Shown: one piece after another, positions 19,262 through 56,730 of the stretch
Numbering within the stretch: the first letter of the stretch is position 1
Layout of the letters: every line of letters begins with the position of its first letter
NCBI GenBank assembly: GCA_009760855.2
Contig: WPIO01000013.1
Span: forward strand, 1,400,001-1,464,000
Length of the DNA: 64,000 nt
From: Cristatella mucedo
Taxonomy: Eukaryota > Bryozoa > Phylactolaemata > Cristatellidae
Direction of reading: 5' to 3'
Notes under the pieces: generated by a model
The model's database searches: none
Told to the model about the DNA's origin: nothing
What the model saw: only the letters and a program-made list of their open reading frames with translations
Made by a program: the position numbers and the translations under genes

Positions 19262-19560
19262 CAACCCCGAGTCTGCGAGCGGATCGAATTAATCGTCCGA
19301 GCGAAGACTACAATTGCAGAGACACTGCACACTCGCTGTAGCGAGCCGCCTGATTGGCTTTTAGCTGCCGTTGATGGAGCGGCCTTCAAATTTCACGGTA
19401 ATTTCAGCTTGCTAACGAAGGCAGCAGCCCAGTAGGCCTAGCAGCACGAAGCGCGAAGTCGTCGTGCGCGGACGAGCCTTCCCGTCAGACAGTCCAGGCC
19501 TCAATAGCCGGCGAGCAGCGTCGCCACTGAGTAGGGTCGAGACCAGTCGTATTAGAAGCC

Positions 19561-20625
19561 ATGGAAGCAAACGATACTAGTATGCGAGTTGAAGCTTTGG
19601 AAGGCCGCCAATGTGGACAAGGACGCGTGCCGACCCCCCAACGACAAGCCGCCGTCATTCCCGGAGGCGTTCACAGGGCGTTCCTCTGCAGCATGGCCGT
19701 CTTTGGTCTGTTTCACCCGCTCCGCATGAGTACGTCGTGGAACAAGTGGCGACCTCTGGTGACTGCCTACGCGTGCTGCGTCATTCTCGTCCTCCTGACC
19801 AACGCGGTAAGACTGAGCGCGACTTGCTTCGAAGTTCGCGATCCGGGCACGGAGTCCACGCCCACGACGGTCATCCTGAAGGTAACGGTGGTCAGTTTTC
19901 ACGCGTACACCTTGCTCACCGTGGCCATACAGTTTGTCACGTGTTGCTCCGAGGAGAAGGGCTTTGCGAGCTACTACGGCAAGCTGAACGGCGCCTGGGA
20001 CGCAGCCGCGCTGGCGGGCATGCGCGTGCGGCATTCCTCCGTGCGAACGTTCGAGGCGGTAGGCTTGGCGGCCGCGTGGCTCCTCTTCGTCGCCAACGCG
20101 AGCTACTCGATTCTGTTCACGCTGGCCGAGGAGCGGCGGGGTAGCGACGCCGAAATGCTGCGATGGAGACGCGGCGGTGGCGGCGCCACCACCGAGGCGG
20201 AGCGCGGGGCCGCGGTCTACCTAGAGATGGTCGCGTCCATTTACGCGGGTAGCACGAACGTGTTTCCAGTGATCTACGTTCTCATCGTCTGCAAGCAGCT
20301 GTGCGAGCTCTGGAACGCCTTCAACCGGAAGCTCGACGAAGAGACGAAGGCGCGCCCCGAAGCTTTTCTCGGTCTCGTGGCGGCGTATCGGCAGCTGTAC
20401 TGCGAGCTGTGCGACGCCGTGGCGAGTGCCAACGCTTGCCTGGAGTACCTGATTGGCATGCACATGGGCGTAAACTTTCTGATGACGATGCTACAGGCCT
20501 ATCTCGTCGCAACGACAACCAACGCGGAGCTGCAGTCGATCCAGAGTTCTTTAAGCATTTTCCTCGTGTCGGCAGTGGCAGTCATGACAGCAGAATTTGC
20601 CGCCGGATGCGTCGTCGTCGATAAG
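19561..20625 (+). CDS. Gustatory-receptor-like (GRL) chemoreceptor, large first exon
   Basis: A 355-codon exon starting at GCCATGG, a good initiation context. Hydrophobic segments lie at about residues 65-85, 103-127, 164-188, 219-245, 292-318 and 326-352, giving six of the seven helices of the insect Gr/GRL fold. The segment before the fifth helix, FLGLVAAYRQLYCELCDAVA then SANACLEYL, is the family-like 'YR.L..L...N' intracellular block. The N-terminus is about 60 hydrophilic residues, as expected for an inverted 7TM receptor with an internal N-terminus. In animals these proteins are ligand-gated cation channels for tastants or small molecules; the ligand is unknown here. The exon ends at AAG|GTAGGA in phase 0, and TM7 must come from another exon. 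Codon use is GC-rich. A two-Gly/Ala loop (about residues 205-210) is low complexity. The family call is by fold and motif, not by close identity. Confidence 0.75.
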
Positions 20626-20746
20626 GTAGGACGCAGGCGACTGGGACCGGCTTTTGCGAGGACGAATGATTGTCATACGCGCGCAACACCACAGACTCTC
20701 CTTTCTCGCTTTTTTTCTGCCTACCCGCTGTGCCGACGGTCATTAG

Positions 20747-20825
20747 CACCGTCGTATCTAAACCGTACTCCAAATCGTACGCCTTGCTTCTGGCAGTTTT
20801 CGTACAGCTTGTGATGAACGGCTAG
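20747..20825 (+). CDS. Possible terminal TM7 exon of the GRL gene
   Basis: After a strong polypyrimidine tract (20698-20725) and GTCATTAG, one frame reads TVVSKPYSKSYALLLAVFVQ then LVMNG and a TAG stop. This is a hydrophobic helix with a short tail, as expected for the last exon of a GR-type gene. The difficulty is phase: the donor at 20626 is phase 0, but this acceptor needs a phase-2 donor. The exon may belong to an alternative donor, the copy may carry a frameshift, or the match may be chance. Confidence 0.35.
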
Positions 20826-21030: not shown

Positions 21031-21645
21031 CCTTTAAAGGTTATGTAAGTGCTTAGCAATAGATTAGGTTCACTGAGGGTTCTGTACAAATATATCTCTG
21101 TTAATATAATTGTATTCTCATTTCAAGAAATCTTGAAAAGTGAAATTTACTTAACGCACAAACTTACATTTTTCTTAATAACAATGCGAAAAGGTCATTT
21201 GCACTAAGCCCTCGGAGTGCTAAATCTCAACTCGAGCGCTTAGGAACTCGCTGCCAGAGCCTCAACAACTAAGGTTTAGTGAGATGCAAGTTACCGTGCG
21301 TAGGCAAGATTTCGAAAGCGTTAAGTGTCATGCTTTGGCCAGTATGCAACAGCACTCAGTCATATATCCTCCCTACGCTGTGGCATCTTGTTAAGGGTTT
21401 CATGTGAGTTGCGGATTATAAGGAAATAGTAGCCAGACGTTGCCTAAGTCGTTCGATTTGTATTCAGGTTTAAAAAAAAGGTGCGCGCCTTTCTCTCTGA
21501 CTCACTAGGATTGTACAATATCTGCTCCACGGAAACACCAAAGAAATGCATTTTTGGTGCAGTAGGTGTCGTCAATCTTATCGGTATGTTCATTACTTGT
21601 CACATTAATCAACTCGCATGCTATAGGGACATGCGCACCGTGCTA
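21031..21645. other. Intergenic, no gene recognised
   Basis: AT-rich. A very diverged antisense LINE tail may lie at about 21190-21260 (TTGCACTAAGCCCTCGGAGT). Otherwise nothing was recognised. Confidence 0.4.
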
Positions 21646-21648
21646 ATT

Positions 21649-22030
21649 GGTGAGCCGTGATGGCGCACTAGGTAAGAGGTTGCTTTTCACTACCTCGGTC
21701 CTGAGGTTGTTGGTTCAAATCCTGTGGTGGGCGATCCTTTATTAATAGTAATAATGATAATTATAATAATGCACTTGATAAAGCGCCCTCAGAGAACTCA
21801 ATCTCTTTCTGGGTGCTTTACATTTGCTGCAAAGGGAAACGCAATTGAATGGTGAGTAATATCATGCTTGATAAACAACATGAATAACATAGTTAGGGGT
21901 GCATGCACAGGGTCCACATGCAATATTATTGCCGCTGCAAGCGGTGGTGATAGCCATAAAGGCTCTTCTGTCGCTATAAGAAAGAGACTTTTTAAATCAG
22001 CTAGTATTTTATTATTTTTGTATAATATAA
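21649..22030 (+). mobile_element. SINE A copy split by a LINE A tail
   Basis: The SINE head is at 21649-21746: the A-box region GCCGTGATGGCGCACTAGGT and the B box GGTTCAAATCC, ending GATCCTTTATT. The SINE tail is at 21926-22030 (GCTGCAAGCGGTGGTGATAG, then GGCTCTTCTGTCGC...). Between them sits an antisense LINE A 3' end (21747-21925). The bases TTATT occur on both sides of the insert and look like a short target duplication, so the LINE came later. Confidence 0.85.
21747..21925 (-). mobile_element. LINE family A 3' end inside SINE A
   Basis: Antisense tail: an AATAATGCACTTGATAAAGC end, the hairpin, TTGCTGCAAAGGGAAACGCA, then 3' UTR to ACAGGGTCCACATGC. It is closely related to the 2.8-kb and 56.7-kb copies. 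Confidence 0.9.
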
Positions 22031-22131
22031 GGCTAAGCCAAGATTTAGCTCACTAGGAGCGAGGGCTTGACCTTTACACGGCTAGCCAGTTATAGGACGG
22101 ACGAAGAAGCGTGTAGGAAGCCTGCCGCCGG

Positions 22132-28906: not shown

Positions 28907-29195
28907 AAATGTAATGTAATGTATCTCAGTCAGTAACTCCACAAAGTCATAAAGACCATGTGGGTGTTACGCAGGAGAGTTTTGTATAGCGCACTCACAG
29001 CCTAAGCGGCTTTCGGTACGCATTCGGTAGCCAACAGACTTCGTCTCACGCAACAAAGAGAAAGTGGGAAGCATAGCAGAGTTAGGAGAGCAGCTGAGGT
29101 AGTGAGTAGCATAGAAGTAGCAGTTCAGGACCGCTGAAAAAGATGTGCCATAGTCGGCAGTTGGAGAGTAGATGTCGTTGCGTAAGAAAGCCCTC
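28907..29195 (-). mobile_element. LINE family B 3' end
   Basis: Almost identical to the 1.15-1.49 kb copy, including the C-terminal peptide SPTADYGTSFSAVLNCYFYA and the tail with TGTAATGTAATGTATCTCAG at its end (antisense of the ACATT repeat). The 5' truncation point is near 29190. Confidence 0.9.
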
Positions 29196-46640: not shown

Positions 46641-46937
46641 ATTCCTCAAAGTGTGTGCACGCCACATTTATGAATCGTCCTCTATGCGCGTATGCTCACT
46701 GAACACTAACACGAATCCTTTCCAAAACAGTTGAGCCGCCTAGACAGAATTAGCTCTCTTCGACACTATATAGTTTGCTATTGCGACACTGCTGTTAGGG
46801 TACCACAGACGCAAGCACGCCCCTGGTACGTAGGCCAGGGGTAAGGTGCTTAAACTTCATGATTCAGATCAGGGTTGGGGTTCTGCAGCAGGCATTCTTT
46901 TATCGCTTACTGAAAGCAGGGTGACAGCCGCTATGGC

Positions 46938-47185
46938 GCCGTGATGGAACACTAGGTAAGGCGGTTGCTTTCACGACCTCGGTCCCGAAGTCGTGGGTTC
47001 GATTCGTGCGGCGGGCGATCCTTTATCGCCACTGCAAGCGGTGGTAATGATAATAATAATAATGCACTTGATAAAGCGCCCCCAGAGAACTCAATCTCTC
47101 TCTAGGCGCTTTACATTTGCTGAGTGATAGCAGTAAAGGCTCTTCTGTCGCTATACAAAAAGAGGCTGTTAATCAGTTAGGATTT
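46938..47185 (+). mobile_element. SINE A with inserted LINE A tail (left arm)
   Basis: SINE head GCCGTGATGGAACACTAGGT and GGGTTCGATTCGTG, core CACTGCAAGCGGTGG. Then an antisense LINE A tail (about 47046-47122) is inserted, and the SINE resumes at GTGATAGCAGTAAAGGCTC. A second SINE A 3' fragment follows at 47200-47246. Confidence 0.9.
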
Positions 47186-47420
47186 ATTTATTTTATTTAT
47201 TAAGGCTCTTCTGCTGCTATACAAACGAGTCTATTTGATCAGCTAACCTGCACGATGCTCCAGAACAGCAAGCTCAGTGCCCGCTTGACTTTCGGCGTCT
47301 GCGTTCACAACTAGTTCCAAGGATGTGGCAACCTCATGATGGCCTGGGTAAAGTGAAGGTTAGCTGATCAAATAGACTCGTTTGTATAGCAGCAGAAGAG
47401 CCTTAATAAATAAAATAAAT

Positions 47421-47668
47421 AAATCCTAACTGATTAACAGCCTCTTTTTGTATAGCGACAGAAGAGCCTTTACTGCTATCACTCAGCAAATGTAAAGCGC
47501 CTAGAGAGAGATTGAGTTCTCTGGGGGCGCTTTATCAAGTGCATTATTATTATTATCATTACCACCGCTTGCAGTGGCGATAAAGGATCGCCCGCCGCAC
47601 GAATCGAACCCACGACTTCGGGACCGAGGTCGTGAAAGCAACCGCCTTACCTAGTGTTCCATCACGGC
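47421..47668 (-). mobile_element. SINE A with inserted LINE A tail (right arm)
   Basis: The mirror image of the left-arm element, base for base where compared, with the LINE A tail now in sense (GTAAAGCGCCTAGAGAGAGA). Confidence 0.9.
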
Positions 47669-47949
47669 GCCATAGCGGCTGTCACCCTGCTTTCAGTAAG
47701 CGATAAAAGAATGCCTGCTGCAGAACCCCAACCCTGATCTGAATCATGAAGTTTAAGCACCTTACCCCTGGCCTACGTACCAGGGGCGTGCTTGCGTCTG
47801 TGGTACCCTAACAGCAGTGTCGCAATAGCAAACTATATAGTGTCGAAGAGAGCTAATTCTGTCTAGGCGGCTCAACTGTTTTGGAAAGGATTCGTGTTAG
47901 TGTGCATGCTCTTTGGTTGCCCGGCTTAGAATAGGCTTCAACTTTTTAG

Positions 47950-49082
47950 AACGCAGCGTTCAAGCACTTGCCGACCAGATTTTACTAGGTCATCTAGCTA
48001 CCCTGCTCAACAAGTCTCTCTCAAAAATGAGTGGCTCGGCCGAAAGGCTTTCAGCCTTCTTCACTGGAAAAATTTTGCACATTCGTGCCTCCATAAAGCC
48101 CCCTCCGACTAAGGCAAGCAATTGCTGAATCGCAACCTGTGACCTTCATTAAAAGATTTTTTGAGGTTTTCACATACGATGTGGATATATTAATAAAGTC
48201 TATCGAAAAGAGCTCGTCTCCTGGAGACCCTATACCATCATCTCAATGGTCTTCACTGGCAGACCAACTTAGCCCAGCCATGGCTGAGCTTTTTAATGCT
48301 TCTCTGGAAAAAGAGGTTGTACCCAAGCCATTCGACTCGGCAATTGTTAGACCAATGATTCTTTCTTTTATGTCAAAAGATTCCTAAAAATTGTCGCTAA
48401 GCAGCTGGTAGCATTGAAAAGAATAAAATTTCATAAAGGTTTCAATCGGAGTTTCAGCTGCAGCACTCCACAGCACCTGCTATTTTCCGTGCAACCAATG
48501 ACATCCTATGCAGCAACGATTACGCGGAATGTCGCTGCCCCTAGCGCTTCTGGATCTATCGGCTGTTTTCGACGCCACTGATCACAAAATCCTACTTGAG
48601 TGATTGAGAGCAATGATCGGTCAGGAAGATTAGAAGCTGTCTCCCACAGTGGCGTGTAAAAAAATTAACTAGCTCTTTAGTTCTGTCTCGGCTTGATTAT
48701 TGTAATTCCCTTTTGGCTGGGCTACCAAAGAAAGCTATAATGCCACTACAGCGGACTATGAATATGGCTGCAAGGCTGTTTCTTTCTTACGCAACGACAT
48801 CTACTCTCCAACTGCCGACTATGGCACATCTTTTTCAGCGGTCCTGAACTGCTACTTCTATGCTACTCACTACCTCAACTGCTCTCCTAACTCTGCTATG
48901 CTTCCCACTTTCTCTTTGTTGCGTGTGACGAAGTCTGTTGGCTACCGAATGCGTACCGAAAGCCGCTTAGGCTGTGAGTGCGCTATACAAAACTCTCCTG
49001 CGTAACGCCCACATGGTCTTTATGACTTTGTGGAGTTACTGACGGAGATACATTACATTACATTACATTACATTACATTACA
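47950..49082 (+). mobile_element. LINE family B copy
   Basis: Starts near ERSVQALADQI and continues with SAERLSAFFTGKILHIRASI, matching the main copy's SAENFSAFFTEKIVHIRASI. Next come AMAELFNASLEKEVVPKPFD (RT N-terminal region), part of the finger domain, an internal deletion at about 48620-48790, and the C-terminal region SPTADYGT. It ends in an (ACATT)n run of about 30 bp at 49053-49082. Non-functional. Confidence 0.85.
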
Positions 49083-50933: not shown

Positions 50934-51557
<624 letters not shown>

Positions 51558-51950
51558 ATGACAGGTCGTGGTAAAGGTGGCAAGGCGGCAGGCAAGTCCA
51601 AGTCGAGGTCGTCGCGCGCCGGATTGCAGTTTCCGGTAGGCAGGATCCACAGGCTGCTGCGCAAGGGCAACTACGCGGAGCGCGTGGGAGCCGGCGCGCC
51701 CGTCTACCTGGCGGCCGTGATGGAGTATCTGGCGGCCGAGGTGCTGGAGCTGGCCGGCAATGCGGCGCGCGACAACAAGAAGACGAGAATCGTGCCGCGC
51801 CACCTGCAGCTGGCTGTGCGCAACGACGAAGAGCTGAACAAGCTGCTGGCGGGCGTGACGATAGCGCAGGGCGGTGTGCTGCCCAACATCCAGGCCGTGC
51901 TGCTGCCCAAGAAGTCGGACAAGCCGGCGGCAGCTGCCAAGTCTGCTTAA
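51558..51950 (+). CDS. H2A: Histone H2A
   Basis: A 130-residue canonical H2A. The tail is [20 protein letters not shown], and the fold includes [20 protein letters not shown], the acidic patch region [19 protein letters not shown], and the docking domain [20 protein letters not shown]. The C-terminus [13 protein letters not shown] has no SQ(E/D) motif, so this is not H2A.X. I chose the MTGRGK start at 51558; the open frame extends upstream through the TATA box and cannot be coding there. Intronless, paired with H2B, ends at a histone stem-loop. Confidence 0.99.
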
Positions 51951-51976
51951 AATGAGCCGTTGCCTCCTTATGAAAC

Positions 51977-51992
51977 GGTCCTTTTCAGGACC
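51977..51992 (+). terminator. Histone 3' stem-loop, H2A
   Basis: GGTCCT-TTTC-AGGACC then ACCA, 26 bp after the stop. It has the standard loop. TTTTAAGAGTA about 12 bp downstream is the likely HDE. Confidence 0.97.
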
Positions 51993-52189
51993 ACCAATCG
52001 TGTTTTAAGAGTACCTTGTTTTCTACACAACACTTCGAGCGCTGTCGTATAGATACTGATCACTAGGTTATGATACCTAGGAAGATAAGCTGGGTATAAT
52101 ATTACACCGTTTGTTTGTAACGACGCTAGTGACGCCATGCTGCCATGAAACCGTGATACCGAAAATGCTGCCGTGAAACCGAGGATGCT

Positions 52190-52290
52190 AATACGGCACG
52201 CTAGCTAGCTACGGTGGTTGCTTTTCCCGACCGCGTTCCGGTCATTGATTAAAATCCGCTGCCACCGCGAGCGGTGGTGATAGCCTGATG

Positions 52291-52373
<83 letters not shown>

Positions 52374-52440
52374 CCCTATGGTGATAGCCCGTTACTGCTC
52401 TTCTGTCGTGCAAGAGGCTCTTAACTCAGCTAGTATTTTT
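52190..52440 (+). mobile_element. SINE A copy expanded by (TA)n
   Basis: ACGGTGGTTGCTTTTCCCGA (head), the core CCACCGCGAGCGGTGGTGAT and the tail CTCTTCTGTCGTGCAAGAGG. A TA run of about 79 bp (52294-52372) sits in the middle, flanked by a repeated GGTGATAGCC, so the TA tract grew within the SINE with a small duplication. Confidence 0.7.
52294..52372. repeat. (TA)n microsatellite
   Basis: Pure TA repeat, 79 bp, inside a SINE A copy. Confidence 0.98.
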
Positions 52441-52515
52441 TTATAGATGGGCGAGCAAGAGTGCTCGAATTGCATTAGAACAGCTGCCATTATTTTCTTA
52501 TTCTACTAGAAACCG

Positions 52516-52675
52516 GTCTACACTTAGAAGGTAAGATGCTTGCTCTTAATGACCGAGGTCGTGGGTTCGAATCCTGCACTTACACGATCCTTAATTGCCA
52601 GCTGCAAAAAGTGGTGCTAGCCGGTAAGGCTCTTCTGGCGCTATATAAATGAGGCTGTTTAATCAGCAACATTTT
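52516..52675 (+). mobile_element. SINE A copy
   Basis: AAGGTAAGATGCTTGCTC, GGTCGTGGGTTCGAATCCTG (B box), CACGATCCTTAATTGCCAGC, GGCTCTTCTGGCGCTATATA and GAGGCTGTTTAATCAGC. Confidence 0.88.
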
Positions 52676-52843
52676 TCTTAAGTTGTTAACTCAGTGCTGT
52701 ATGCTCTCCTTTTTCAGAACCTCAAACATAGGTCTCGATAATTTCGTTCTTACAAATCCATAAATGACGTGCAGTCGACCAGTTGTAGATGCTACAAGTT
52801 GTGCTACGCGACTACATTAGTAGGTATAGTATTGTAGTTAGCT

Positions 52844-53030
52844 TATGGTGAGCCGTCATGGCCCACTAGAAAGGCAGTTTCTTTTAACGAAACTGCTCTC
52901 GAGGTCGTGGATACGAATCCTGTGGTGGGCGATCTCCTGTATTGCAGCTGCAAGCTGTGGTGATAGCCTTATGGGCTATTCTGCCGCTATACGAAAGAGG
53001 CTGCTAAATCAGCTGATTATTTCTTTTATG
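52844..53030 (+). mobile_element. SINE A copy
   Basis: GGTGAGCCGTCATGGCCCAC (A box side), GTCGTGGATACGAATCCTGT (B box), GCTGCAAGCTGTGGTGATAG and GCCGCTATACGAAAGAGGCT. The head has a small internal repeat (GCAGTTTC... and GAAACTGC) forming a hairpin. Confidence 0.88.
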
Positions 53031-53335
53031 ACCACTCAACTCAACTGCTATAGTGAGATGGTGATGTATGCTTAAACTAATGTGGCTCACACAGTACCTT
53101 AGAATGACTGCCATTACTAGGCGGTTGTTAAGATAGTTTGCATGTATTAGCAACGTGTAAACAGAAGCTAAACCTGCAAATGCTTCTCGCAGCATTCGCT
53201 GGAGTCAAGCTAATTGTTCCTGGTGTTCTTTTGCCACTGCAGTATGAACATTAAGCAGTTGACCTACTTTATCAATTAAAAGTGAAAGTGCCTAAAAAGA
53301 GATGTACTCACTTGTCACACACTATCCAATTACTG

Positions 53336-53500
53336 GCTTATTGAACAGCCTCTTATTTAGCGACAGAAGAGCCTCGTAGGCCTATCACCACCACATGCAG
53401 CAGCGATAAATAATCAAGTCATCACAAGATGCCAACCCACGACCCCGGGACCGAGGTCGTGAAGGCAACCGCCTTACCTATTGTGCTATCAAAGCTAACC
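53336..53500 (-). mobile_element. SINE A copy
   Basis: CTTATTGAACAGCCTCTTAT, AGCGACAGAAGAGCC, CAACCCACGACCCCGGGACC and TTACCTATTGTGCTATCAAA in antisense order. Confidence 0.85.
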
Positions 53501-53734
53501 AAATAGCCTCAGTGCCACGATTACTATTACCTCAAATAAGATACACAGGGATATGGCCAAGCCACAATCAGCCCCCCCCCAGCTGCCGACATTACTATCA
53601 GGGAGTGTTTAGGGAACCATGGCAGCACGACGAAAGCTTTCTAAAAAGACAAAACTGCACGAGAGTACAATAGCAGAACAGTGTCGTGCAAATACAACAA
53701 ACCGACGGCTGGACCTGGCACTCGGTCGAACGAA

Positions 53735-53870
53735 TGTCCAGCAGTTAAGGTGCTCGCCCCGACCAAGGTCTGGCTGAGGTTGTGAGCTCGATCCCCGAGG
53801 CATACGTGAAGCACCCGAATAGAGATTGAAGCTCTCTTGGAGCGCTGTACAAATGAATTATGTAATGTCA
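53735..53870 (+). mobile_element. SINE B copy
   Basis: Head GTCCAGCAGTTAAGGTGCTC and TGTGAGCTCGATCCCCGAGG. The tail AATAGAGATTGAAGCTCTCT then TGGAGCGCTGTACAAATGAA has the same stem design as the LINE A 3' hairpin. A partial head of the same type is at about 39815-39850. Confidence 0.65.
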
Positions 53871-54055
53871 CTGCTCATATCGCCATGCTTCTGGAAAGGG
53901 ATGGAACACTTTGTTTAAAAAGAATTCTGTTGGTGACGCCTGGAAATTTATCCTCACCAGTGGGACACAGGCTTATTGACGGAGTTTATTTAATGGCGTT
54001 ATTTAATTAGTAGATGTGTACTTATATATGTGTATGTAGCTCCTGACCTTCCTGC

Positions 54056-54920
54056 AATAGTAATAATAATAATAATTATTATTATAAAGTAGTTATAGTG
54101 CGCTCAGAGAACACGATCTCCTTCTAGGCACTTTGCATTTGCCGCAAAGAAGCAAATATAGAATGGTTAAAGGTTGCATGCGCAGTGACAAGCATAAAAT
54201 GGTTTGAGGTGACATGCCCTACGGTCAGCATGCAAATAGGGTTAGTGGTGGCATGCACAATGTCAGCACCCGTACACACAAAGGACGAACCACAAGGATC
54301 CACTAAATGCTGTGACAAATAGATGCGTTTTGAGTTGCTTTTTAAGTGTGGTCAAGTCAAAGGATGTCGTGATGCCAGCCGCAAGTGAGTTTCAGGCTTT
54401 GGCAGCATATGAACTCAAGGCAAGGGCTCCAAAAGGATTTGTGGTACGTATGCGGTATAGGTAAAAAATCAGATTACGAAAAATTGGTGGTATGATGCTT
54501 AGCCTGGTGGGGGAGTAGATATGATAGGCAGGCTTGAGGCGAAGAAAGGAGGGACCTAAAAGTGAGTGACAAAACCTTTCGAGGTCGAGGTGTTGCTTGA
54601 CTTGGAGACAGTGGAGGCCGGCGAAGAGTTATGACAAGTGGCAACTGCAATGCTCACGAAGGACAAGCCTAGCTGCAGTTTTGCACAAGCTGTCAGTTGC
54701 TGATTGCACGCGCCGGTGGGCCAGCAAGCAGTGAATTACACTGGTCAAGACGGGTCTTCACAAATCACGGACCAATCGAGTTCTTTGAGGACGCTTTATC
54801 AAGCATAATCGGTCTACACAAGCACGAACTTCAGTAATGTAATGTAGCTGAAAGCAGGCTAGGCTGTAGGGCAGATGTGGTTTAGGGTGATATTGTGAGT
54901 CACAACGTACATACGTAGTC
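54056..54920 (-). mobile_element. LINE family A copy, degraded
   Basis: Starts with an AAT/ATT-rich end, then TAGTGCGCTCAGAGAACACG and CTTCTAGGCACTTTGCATTT (antisense tail). The 3' UTR repeats, the antisense of the ORF C-terminal half and part of the RT end follow. Small indels break the frame throughout. A second, solo tail remnant lies at about 54985-55060 (GCATACCACTCAGAACTGAA). Confidence 0.85.
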
Positions 54921-55365
54921 GGATCAGCTTAATTGCCTGCGACCTGCATGTGTTCCTCAGTGCATCTGTTGACCCAGTGTGAACAGTAATACATTTGCAT
55001 ACCACTCAGAACTGAATCTATTTCTAGGCACTTACAGAAGGTGTATAGTAAGCGTTACTAAATGCCAAATTGGCCTAGCACTTACAAAGCACACGCTAGC
55101 AGTTATTAAACAAGCTTGATTCAACTTGTAATAGCTAGTTTGGCAGAGCCACCGCCGTCTTAGCAGGTAATAACATCAATGATATGTTGGTGAACGAATC
55201 ACAACTCTCTCTAATCGACGATGAGATCACGTTAACAAGAAACGCAAGTATTCAGTAATGATTATTCAGGGTTAACGTAATGCACGGTCTTAAGGATTAA
55301 TTGTAACAAGTATCCTTTTTAGAGGGCAAAATGCTTTCGACTCAAGACACTCTTATCGAGCTGGT

Positions 55366-55381
55366 GGTCCTAAGAAGGACC
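55366..55381 (-). terminator. Histone 3' stem-loop, H4
   Basis: On the minus strand GGTCCT-TCTT-AGGACC then ACCA, 25 bp after the stop. The loop UCUU departs from the common UUUC. GATAAGAGTGTCTTGAG follows as the likely HDE. Confidence 0.92.
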
Positions 55382-55405
55382 GTTTGTTGACGAAAAGCTA
55401 GCTGC

Positions 55406-56378
<973 letters not shown>

Positions 56379-56400
56379 GTACGTGAGGCTGTTAAGAAAA

Positions 56401-56416
56401 GGCCCTTTTCAGGGCC
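56401..56416 (+). terminator. Histone 3' stem-loop, H3
   Basis: GGCCCT-TTTC-AGGGCC then ACCA, 22 bp after the stop. TTTTTAAGAGTAA downstream is the likely HDE, the same wording as after H2A. Confidence 0.97.
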
Positions 56417-56419
56417 ACC

Positions 56420-56730
56420 ACTTTGTTTTTAAGAGTAATTTGGTTCGTTAGTTGATAGGATTGTACGAATGATGTAATGGGTGTATTAATGAATGGGCTA
56501 AATGAGCGTAGCAGGATAATTCCACAACTTACCTCCGTCGGTTAACGCCGTCATCTTGGCGGTGTATTCATGAGCTGAGCTCGGATATCCTTGCAAGAAA
56601 GCAAGTCCTAGGGATACGATTTGATTAGAATTTACCTGGATGCTGAGTCCGCTCTATCGATAGCTCGGCCTGTATGTCGACGGACTTCATACTCGTTCTG
56701 GAAATAGCTCACTTCCCAGATTTCAGTTTA
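56420..56730. other. Intergenic, downstream of H3
   Basis: No coding or repeat match beyond the HDE. Confidence 0.5.

Follow-up and report, generated by a model that had tools for sequence, protein, structure and literature searches.

Inverted copies of DNA have been described as templated insertions, as short-range template-switch mutations and as fold-back inverted duplications. In the inverted templated insertions reported in the data of PMC8421209, microhomology of 2–12 bp was present at 80% of the junctions (mean 3.7), and at 95% when mismatches were allowed, and among the human fold-back junctions tabulated in PMC3907307, inverted microhomology of 2–8 bp was found in 13 of the 21 that were sequenced. 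In yeast, inverted duplications can arise by a Pol-delta-dependent route that begins at a break with fold-back annealing, as outlined in PMC10622511, and the inverted junctions summarised in PMC10766183 favour short interrupted inverted repeats (40–80 bp) with arms within ~100 bp. In the census results given in PMC13155455, which refer to perfect inverted repeats with spacers of 8 bp or less, human arms are at most 140 bp long.

The locus described here is an inverted repeat in a 64,000-nucleotide stretch of Cristatella mucedo DNA (positions 1400001–1464000 of its contig; the window, i.e. the whole stretch that was analysed). From the features given below we infer a real and recent event in the germline in which one of the arms is an insert made by a polymerase: probably, as read from the sequence, a single inverted templated insertion of 547 bp, lying 107 bp away from its template, no sequence having been detectably lost, whichever of the two arms served as the template. 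The arms were compared base by base, an alignment that the preliminary description had itself proposed, and were perfect reverse complements (547/547, 0 mismatches); the perfect symmetry and the 107 bp spacer claimed there are both upheld (Table 1). Beyond a single mismatch on each side the pairing resumes, with 2 pairs at the outer end and 3 at the inner end, which is why automated repeat finding gives arms of 554 bp with 99 bp between them. The inner junction has a 3 bp inverted match (CAC/GTG) beside one mismatch, and the outer junction a 2 bp match (TG) beside one mismatch, both of a length too short to exceed chance. The outer flanks (300 bp on each side) are unrelated, with alignment scores of 16 in direct and 11 in inverted orientation; in 100 shuffles per orientation the highest score was 19.

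Table 1. Features of the inverted repeat and of the repeats nested in its arms (positions in the window).
Feature	Position	Strand	Basis
Left arm, 547 bp, inverted copy and probable insert	46703..47249	+	0 mismatches to right arm; old-SINE 3′ tail cut at AGCTAACCT/GCACG
Spacer, 107 bp, present once in the assembly	47250..47356	.	Sole candidate and sole match is itself, in 572 Mb
Right arm, 547 bp, probable original	47357..47903	-	Old-SINE tail runs on into spacer as TCACTTTAC, resembling the family tail TTACTTT
Left flank at outer breakpoint	46692..46702	+	Join to spacer start would give a hairpin with 6 bp stem, TGCTCACTGAGCA
Right flank, outer end of right arm	47904..47911	+	300 bp flank alignment not above best of 100 shuffles, either orientation
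Non-SINE arm start (arm 1-116)	46703..46818	+	No match besides the two arms (40 of 62 candidates scored)
Old SINE, 5′ part (arm 117-235)	46819..46937	+	38 other own-genome matches, 72-85% (40 scored of 62 candidates)
Younger tRNA-type SINE, head (arm 236-346), with B-box-like GGTTCGATTC at 46996	46938..47048	+	Sequence comparison with other copies
LINE 3′ end (arm 343-420), nested in younger SINE	47045..47122	-	75-95% identity to the 3′ ends of LINE copies
Younger SINE, tail part (arm 422 to ~498)	47124..47200	+	Sequence comparison with other copies
Old SINE, 3′ part (arm 497-547)	47199..47249	+	Joined to 5′ part in other genome copies
Old-SINE tail TCACTTTAC, right-arm side only, within spacer	47348..47356	-	PWM +2.94 bits vs -5.85 bits at left-arm junction

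When the assembly (572 Mb, 688 contigs) was searched with the spacer, one candidate and one match were returned, i.e. the spacer itself, and full-length arm matches were found at these two places only, among 40 scored of 5108 candidates. The listing of inverted pairs in the window (at least 40 bp, partners within 3 kb) held ten entries, and the nine others were 82–96% complementary and no longer than 152 nt. Self-comparison of the window together with 200 kb from elsewhere (length 60 bp or more, identity 80% or more, partners no more than 4 kb apart) gave 15 partly overlapping rows, of which the 14 besides this repeat were 80.2–94.8% identical; the sample behind this base rate is small, consisting of two 100 kb blocks from two contigs of the same genome, with 5 kb of the 200 kb being N. 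A chance origin of the arm symmetry is excluded.

A transposon of Foldback or MITE type was considered and rejected, as it should occur in multiple dispersed copies, whereas the spacer is single-copy and arm positions 1–116 are matched by the two arms only (40 scored of 62 candidates). A target-site duplication flush with the outer ends is likewise absent: ATGCTC is present on both sides (at 46692 and 47906), 5 and 2 bases off the arms.

Old and diverged SINE and LINE pieces had been noticed inside the arms from the beginning, and this content was confirmed by other copies in the window, which match the SINE parts at 74–93% and the LINE tail at 75–95%. An exact 20-base pattern from the conserved SINE tail had no match in the collections viral_contigs and genome_contigs. 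The two parts of the old SINE were contiguous in three of six loci compared by BLAST, and in nearly all of the 26 aligned copies as judged by eye. For the head of the younger SINE, the best genome matches were 95–97% identical (among 40 scored of 5108 candidates). The LINE piece, which we take to be of the L2/CR1-like class, is missing from seven of the eight other window copies of the younger SINE, and the eighth (21640–22035) contains a longer LINE insert. In this copy and in the one at 46938–47200 the LINE 3′ end sits at nearly identical places within the SINE, which may be a preferred target for insertion. By eye, short repeats border both insertions, about TAAGGC for the younger SINE and TGATA for the LINE. 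Short runs of ATA and ATTT also have the same lengths in both arms. At least three insertions thus predate the duplication, and all of them are present in both arms.

The preliminary description had further argued that the symmetry must be far younger than the repeats enclosed in it. This was found to be the case: the arms differ at 0 of 547 positions, whereas other genome copies of the contained repeats are only 72–97% alike. The absence of differences sets a bound of 0.0055 on arm divergence (95% confidence), which corresponds to under ~one million generations if 2.8e-9 mutations per site and generation are assumed. Conversion between the arms would weaken this bound, and an older duplication could then look young.

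Such homogenisation by gene conversion, acting on an older inverted duplication or on an inverted pair of SINEs, has precedents, as the arms of mammalian sex-chromosome palindromes are kept alike through conversion in the cases treated in PMC7023750, and inverted repeat pairs of 80–95% identity exist in the genome sample (window plus 200 kb). At this locus, however, the identity also covers the part of the arm that is not SINE at its start, and at either end it breaks off sharply and not gradually, and we regard the conversion reading as quite improbable. Perfect identity is also what would be yielded by an artefact of library preparation or assembly, i.e. a fold-back, an amplification chimera or a local misjoin built into the contig. 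Fold-back reads amount to ~0.55–0.6% of ONT genomic reads in the data sets reported in PMC12870357, where the PacBio HiFi data examined contained virtually none, and palindromic reads are pervasive in the tardigrade data obtained after whole-genome amplification that are presented in PMC13265396. A fold-back read turns once and should mirror its outer flank, but the flanks here are unrelated, and two switches would be necessary to produce the locus as an artefact, of which the second would have to land on the right flank. Moreover, no second inverted repeat of more than 94.8% identity was listed in the 195 kb of other called sequence and the rest of the window, and the contigs examined are as long as 24.8 Mb, which suggests, without proving it, that long reads were used. 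Since the flanks are not mirrored and the spacer is genomic and single-copy, an artefact is unlikely. The interpretation given in the preliminary description is thus supported in part: of the two possibilities it offered, the recent inverted duplication, with template switching as a possible cause, is kept as the best reading, and the fold-back artefact is disfavoured. A different role for the repeat, as a selected hairpin-RNA locus producing small RNAs against SINEs, is very improbable. RNA from 46650–47950 is predicted to fold almost perfectly at -1173 kcal/mol, a value without a shuffle control at that length, and a hairpin transcript is physically possible. The B box of the younger SINE matches GGTTCGATTC in the left arm and by symmetry also in the right arm, both boxes facing inward to the spacer. 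Against such a role, the arms contain T runs, at which Pol III transcripts could terminate. Arm identity is accounted for by age alone, and no function or selection is needed, because perfect identity requires recency only.

Within the preferred reading, a recent inverted templated insertion, the arms can be told apart by the end of the old SINE. After AGCTAACCT, the 26 old-SINE copies (taken from the top of 38 non-self matches with one skipped, L034 and L037 looking like near-duplicates) mostly continue with TTACTTT-like sequence. The right-arm side reads AGCTAACCT/TCACTTTAC, and the left-arm side reads AGCTAACCT/GCACGATGC. With a matrix made from the 26 copies, the right-arm junction scored +2.94 bits, a level reached by 3.6% of the window 12-mers, and the left-arm junction -5.85 bits, which 72% of them reach. 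This gap of 8.8 bits, equal to about 440:1, suggests on sequence grounds an original right arm and an inserted left arm. The same event with opposite polarity, i.e. the left arm being original and the right arm inserted between the spacer and the right flank, would need an old SINE that lacked a TTACTTT-type tail and tail-like sequence standing at the right arm by chance, against which the same ratio counts; we consider it rather unlikely. In its favour, joining the spacer end to the right flank gives AGTGAGCAT; the left flank contains its reverse complement, ATGCTCACT, and the length of this 9 bp match was equalled in 36 of 20000 random triples (P 0.0018). The same join also contains a 10 bp palindrome, GAGCATGCTC, with a 5 bp half, a length reached in about 6% of random joins, and with the right arm as the copy there is better outer (return) microhomology, AGTG next to a single mismatch. 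The 9 bp match was given less weight because it was noticed post hoc and no mechanism known to us predicts it. If the left arm is the insert, as preferred, the insertion point lies within the potential hairpin TGCTCACTGAGCA, a structure at which a polymerase could stall; P is 0.019 for a stem of that length at a random join, again a post hoc observation. Target-site duplications of the old SINE were not detectable in the 26 copies (mean longest match 4.65 vs 4.56 in mismatched controls), and GCACG beside the left-arm junction therefore carries no weight for polarity.

With this polarity, the ancestral order would most likely have been left flank, spacer, right arm and right flank. A fork may have stalled, or a break may have occurred, at the point between the left flank and the spacer. 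The 3′ end would then have moved over to the opposite strand, used it as template for 547 bp, come off and rejoined where it had started. The short junction matches beside mismatches would be as in microhomology-mediated templated insertion. Template switching at a fork and fold-back repair of a break both fit and are indistinguishable here. That the whole insert was copied in one polymerase excursion of 547 bp in an animal germline, as a lossless there-and-back strand switch with return to the starting base, is possible at a little under even confidence.

The repeat is overlapped by no uninterrupted stop-to-stop frame of at least 130 aa, and ARAGORN reported no tRNA in the whole window. Beyond the right arm, an H2B gene was named by eye from its reading frame (50934–51308, minus strand), and its start presumably is of lophotrochozoan kind. 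It is divergent from H2A (51558–51950, plus strand), and an H3 gene of ordinary length, 136 aa, follows at 55968–56378 (plus strand), the starts of both H2A and H3 being placed by eye. A canonical histone 3′ stem-loop at 56396–56441 was the sole Rfam match in the window at gathering thresholds. These genes form a small histone group (50934–56441), in which H3 lies ~4 kb past the divergent H2B/H2A pair with repeat pieces in between. Elsewhere in the window, a 427 aa stop-to-stop frame (19531–20814) matched the 7tm_7 chemosensory receptor family with 24 bits, which is under the Pfam cut-off of 26.6. Copies of a repeat of ~265–283 bp at 1158–1423, 28908–29190 and 48782–49064 were 97.7–98.6% identical to each other, and this repeat was probably active recently.

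If real, the locus is a well-preserved record of an inverted templated insertion of middle size, and the old repeats nested in its arms help to distinguish template from copy. The frequency of germline strand switching at this scale could be measured in long-read assemblies by counting events of this kind that differ in their degree of arm divergence. The event creates a new perfect spaced palindrome, and long and similar arms raise instability. In the eukaryotic-cell experiments reported in PMC7999016, fork stalling was seen with a 12 bp spacer and not with a 52 bp spacer, and the 107 bp spacer may therefore be fairly stable.

Compared with the inverted templated insertions of microhomology-mediated break-induced replication (MMB-TI) as described in PMC8421209, the locus is alike in being an inverted copy of a nearby template, at 107 bp where the limit of the search in that work was 100 bp, and may resemble them in short junction microhomology with mismatches, the matches here being 3 bp and 2 bp and within chance. 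It differs in length, as 547 bp is beyond the reach of the published short-read search, which is limited by read length (PMC8421209), and in lacking an ancestral reference. The short-range template-switch mutations of the four-point model are similar in that an inserted inverted copy makes one perfect inverted repeat, and differ in having an ancestor for alignment, which this locus has not. In the ape gold-standard set of PMC7954356 their median length is 12 bp and the maximum 128 bp, which is exceeded by the 547 bp found here and speaks against our preferred explanation. Fold-back inverted duplications with a disomic spacer share with the locus a non-duplicated spacer, and may resemble it in short inverted microhomology at the spacer ends, according to the junctions described in PMC3907307. 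The human examples given there are, however, large, with sequenced spacers of 766–70,466 bp, and adjoin terminal deletions, translocations or rings, whereas the present event is local with no sign of loss (PMC3907307). The census of inverted repeats with spacers of 8 bp or less, as defined in PMC13155455, does not extend to spaced repeats such as this one. An arm of 547 bp is long for the template-switch class and short for the fold-back duplications, and the locus stands between the two. The event is probably ordinary in kind and somewhat long, a clean example of a known copying accident and not a new system.
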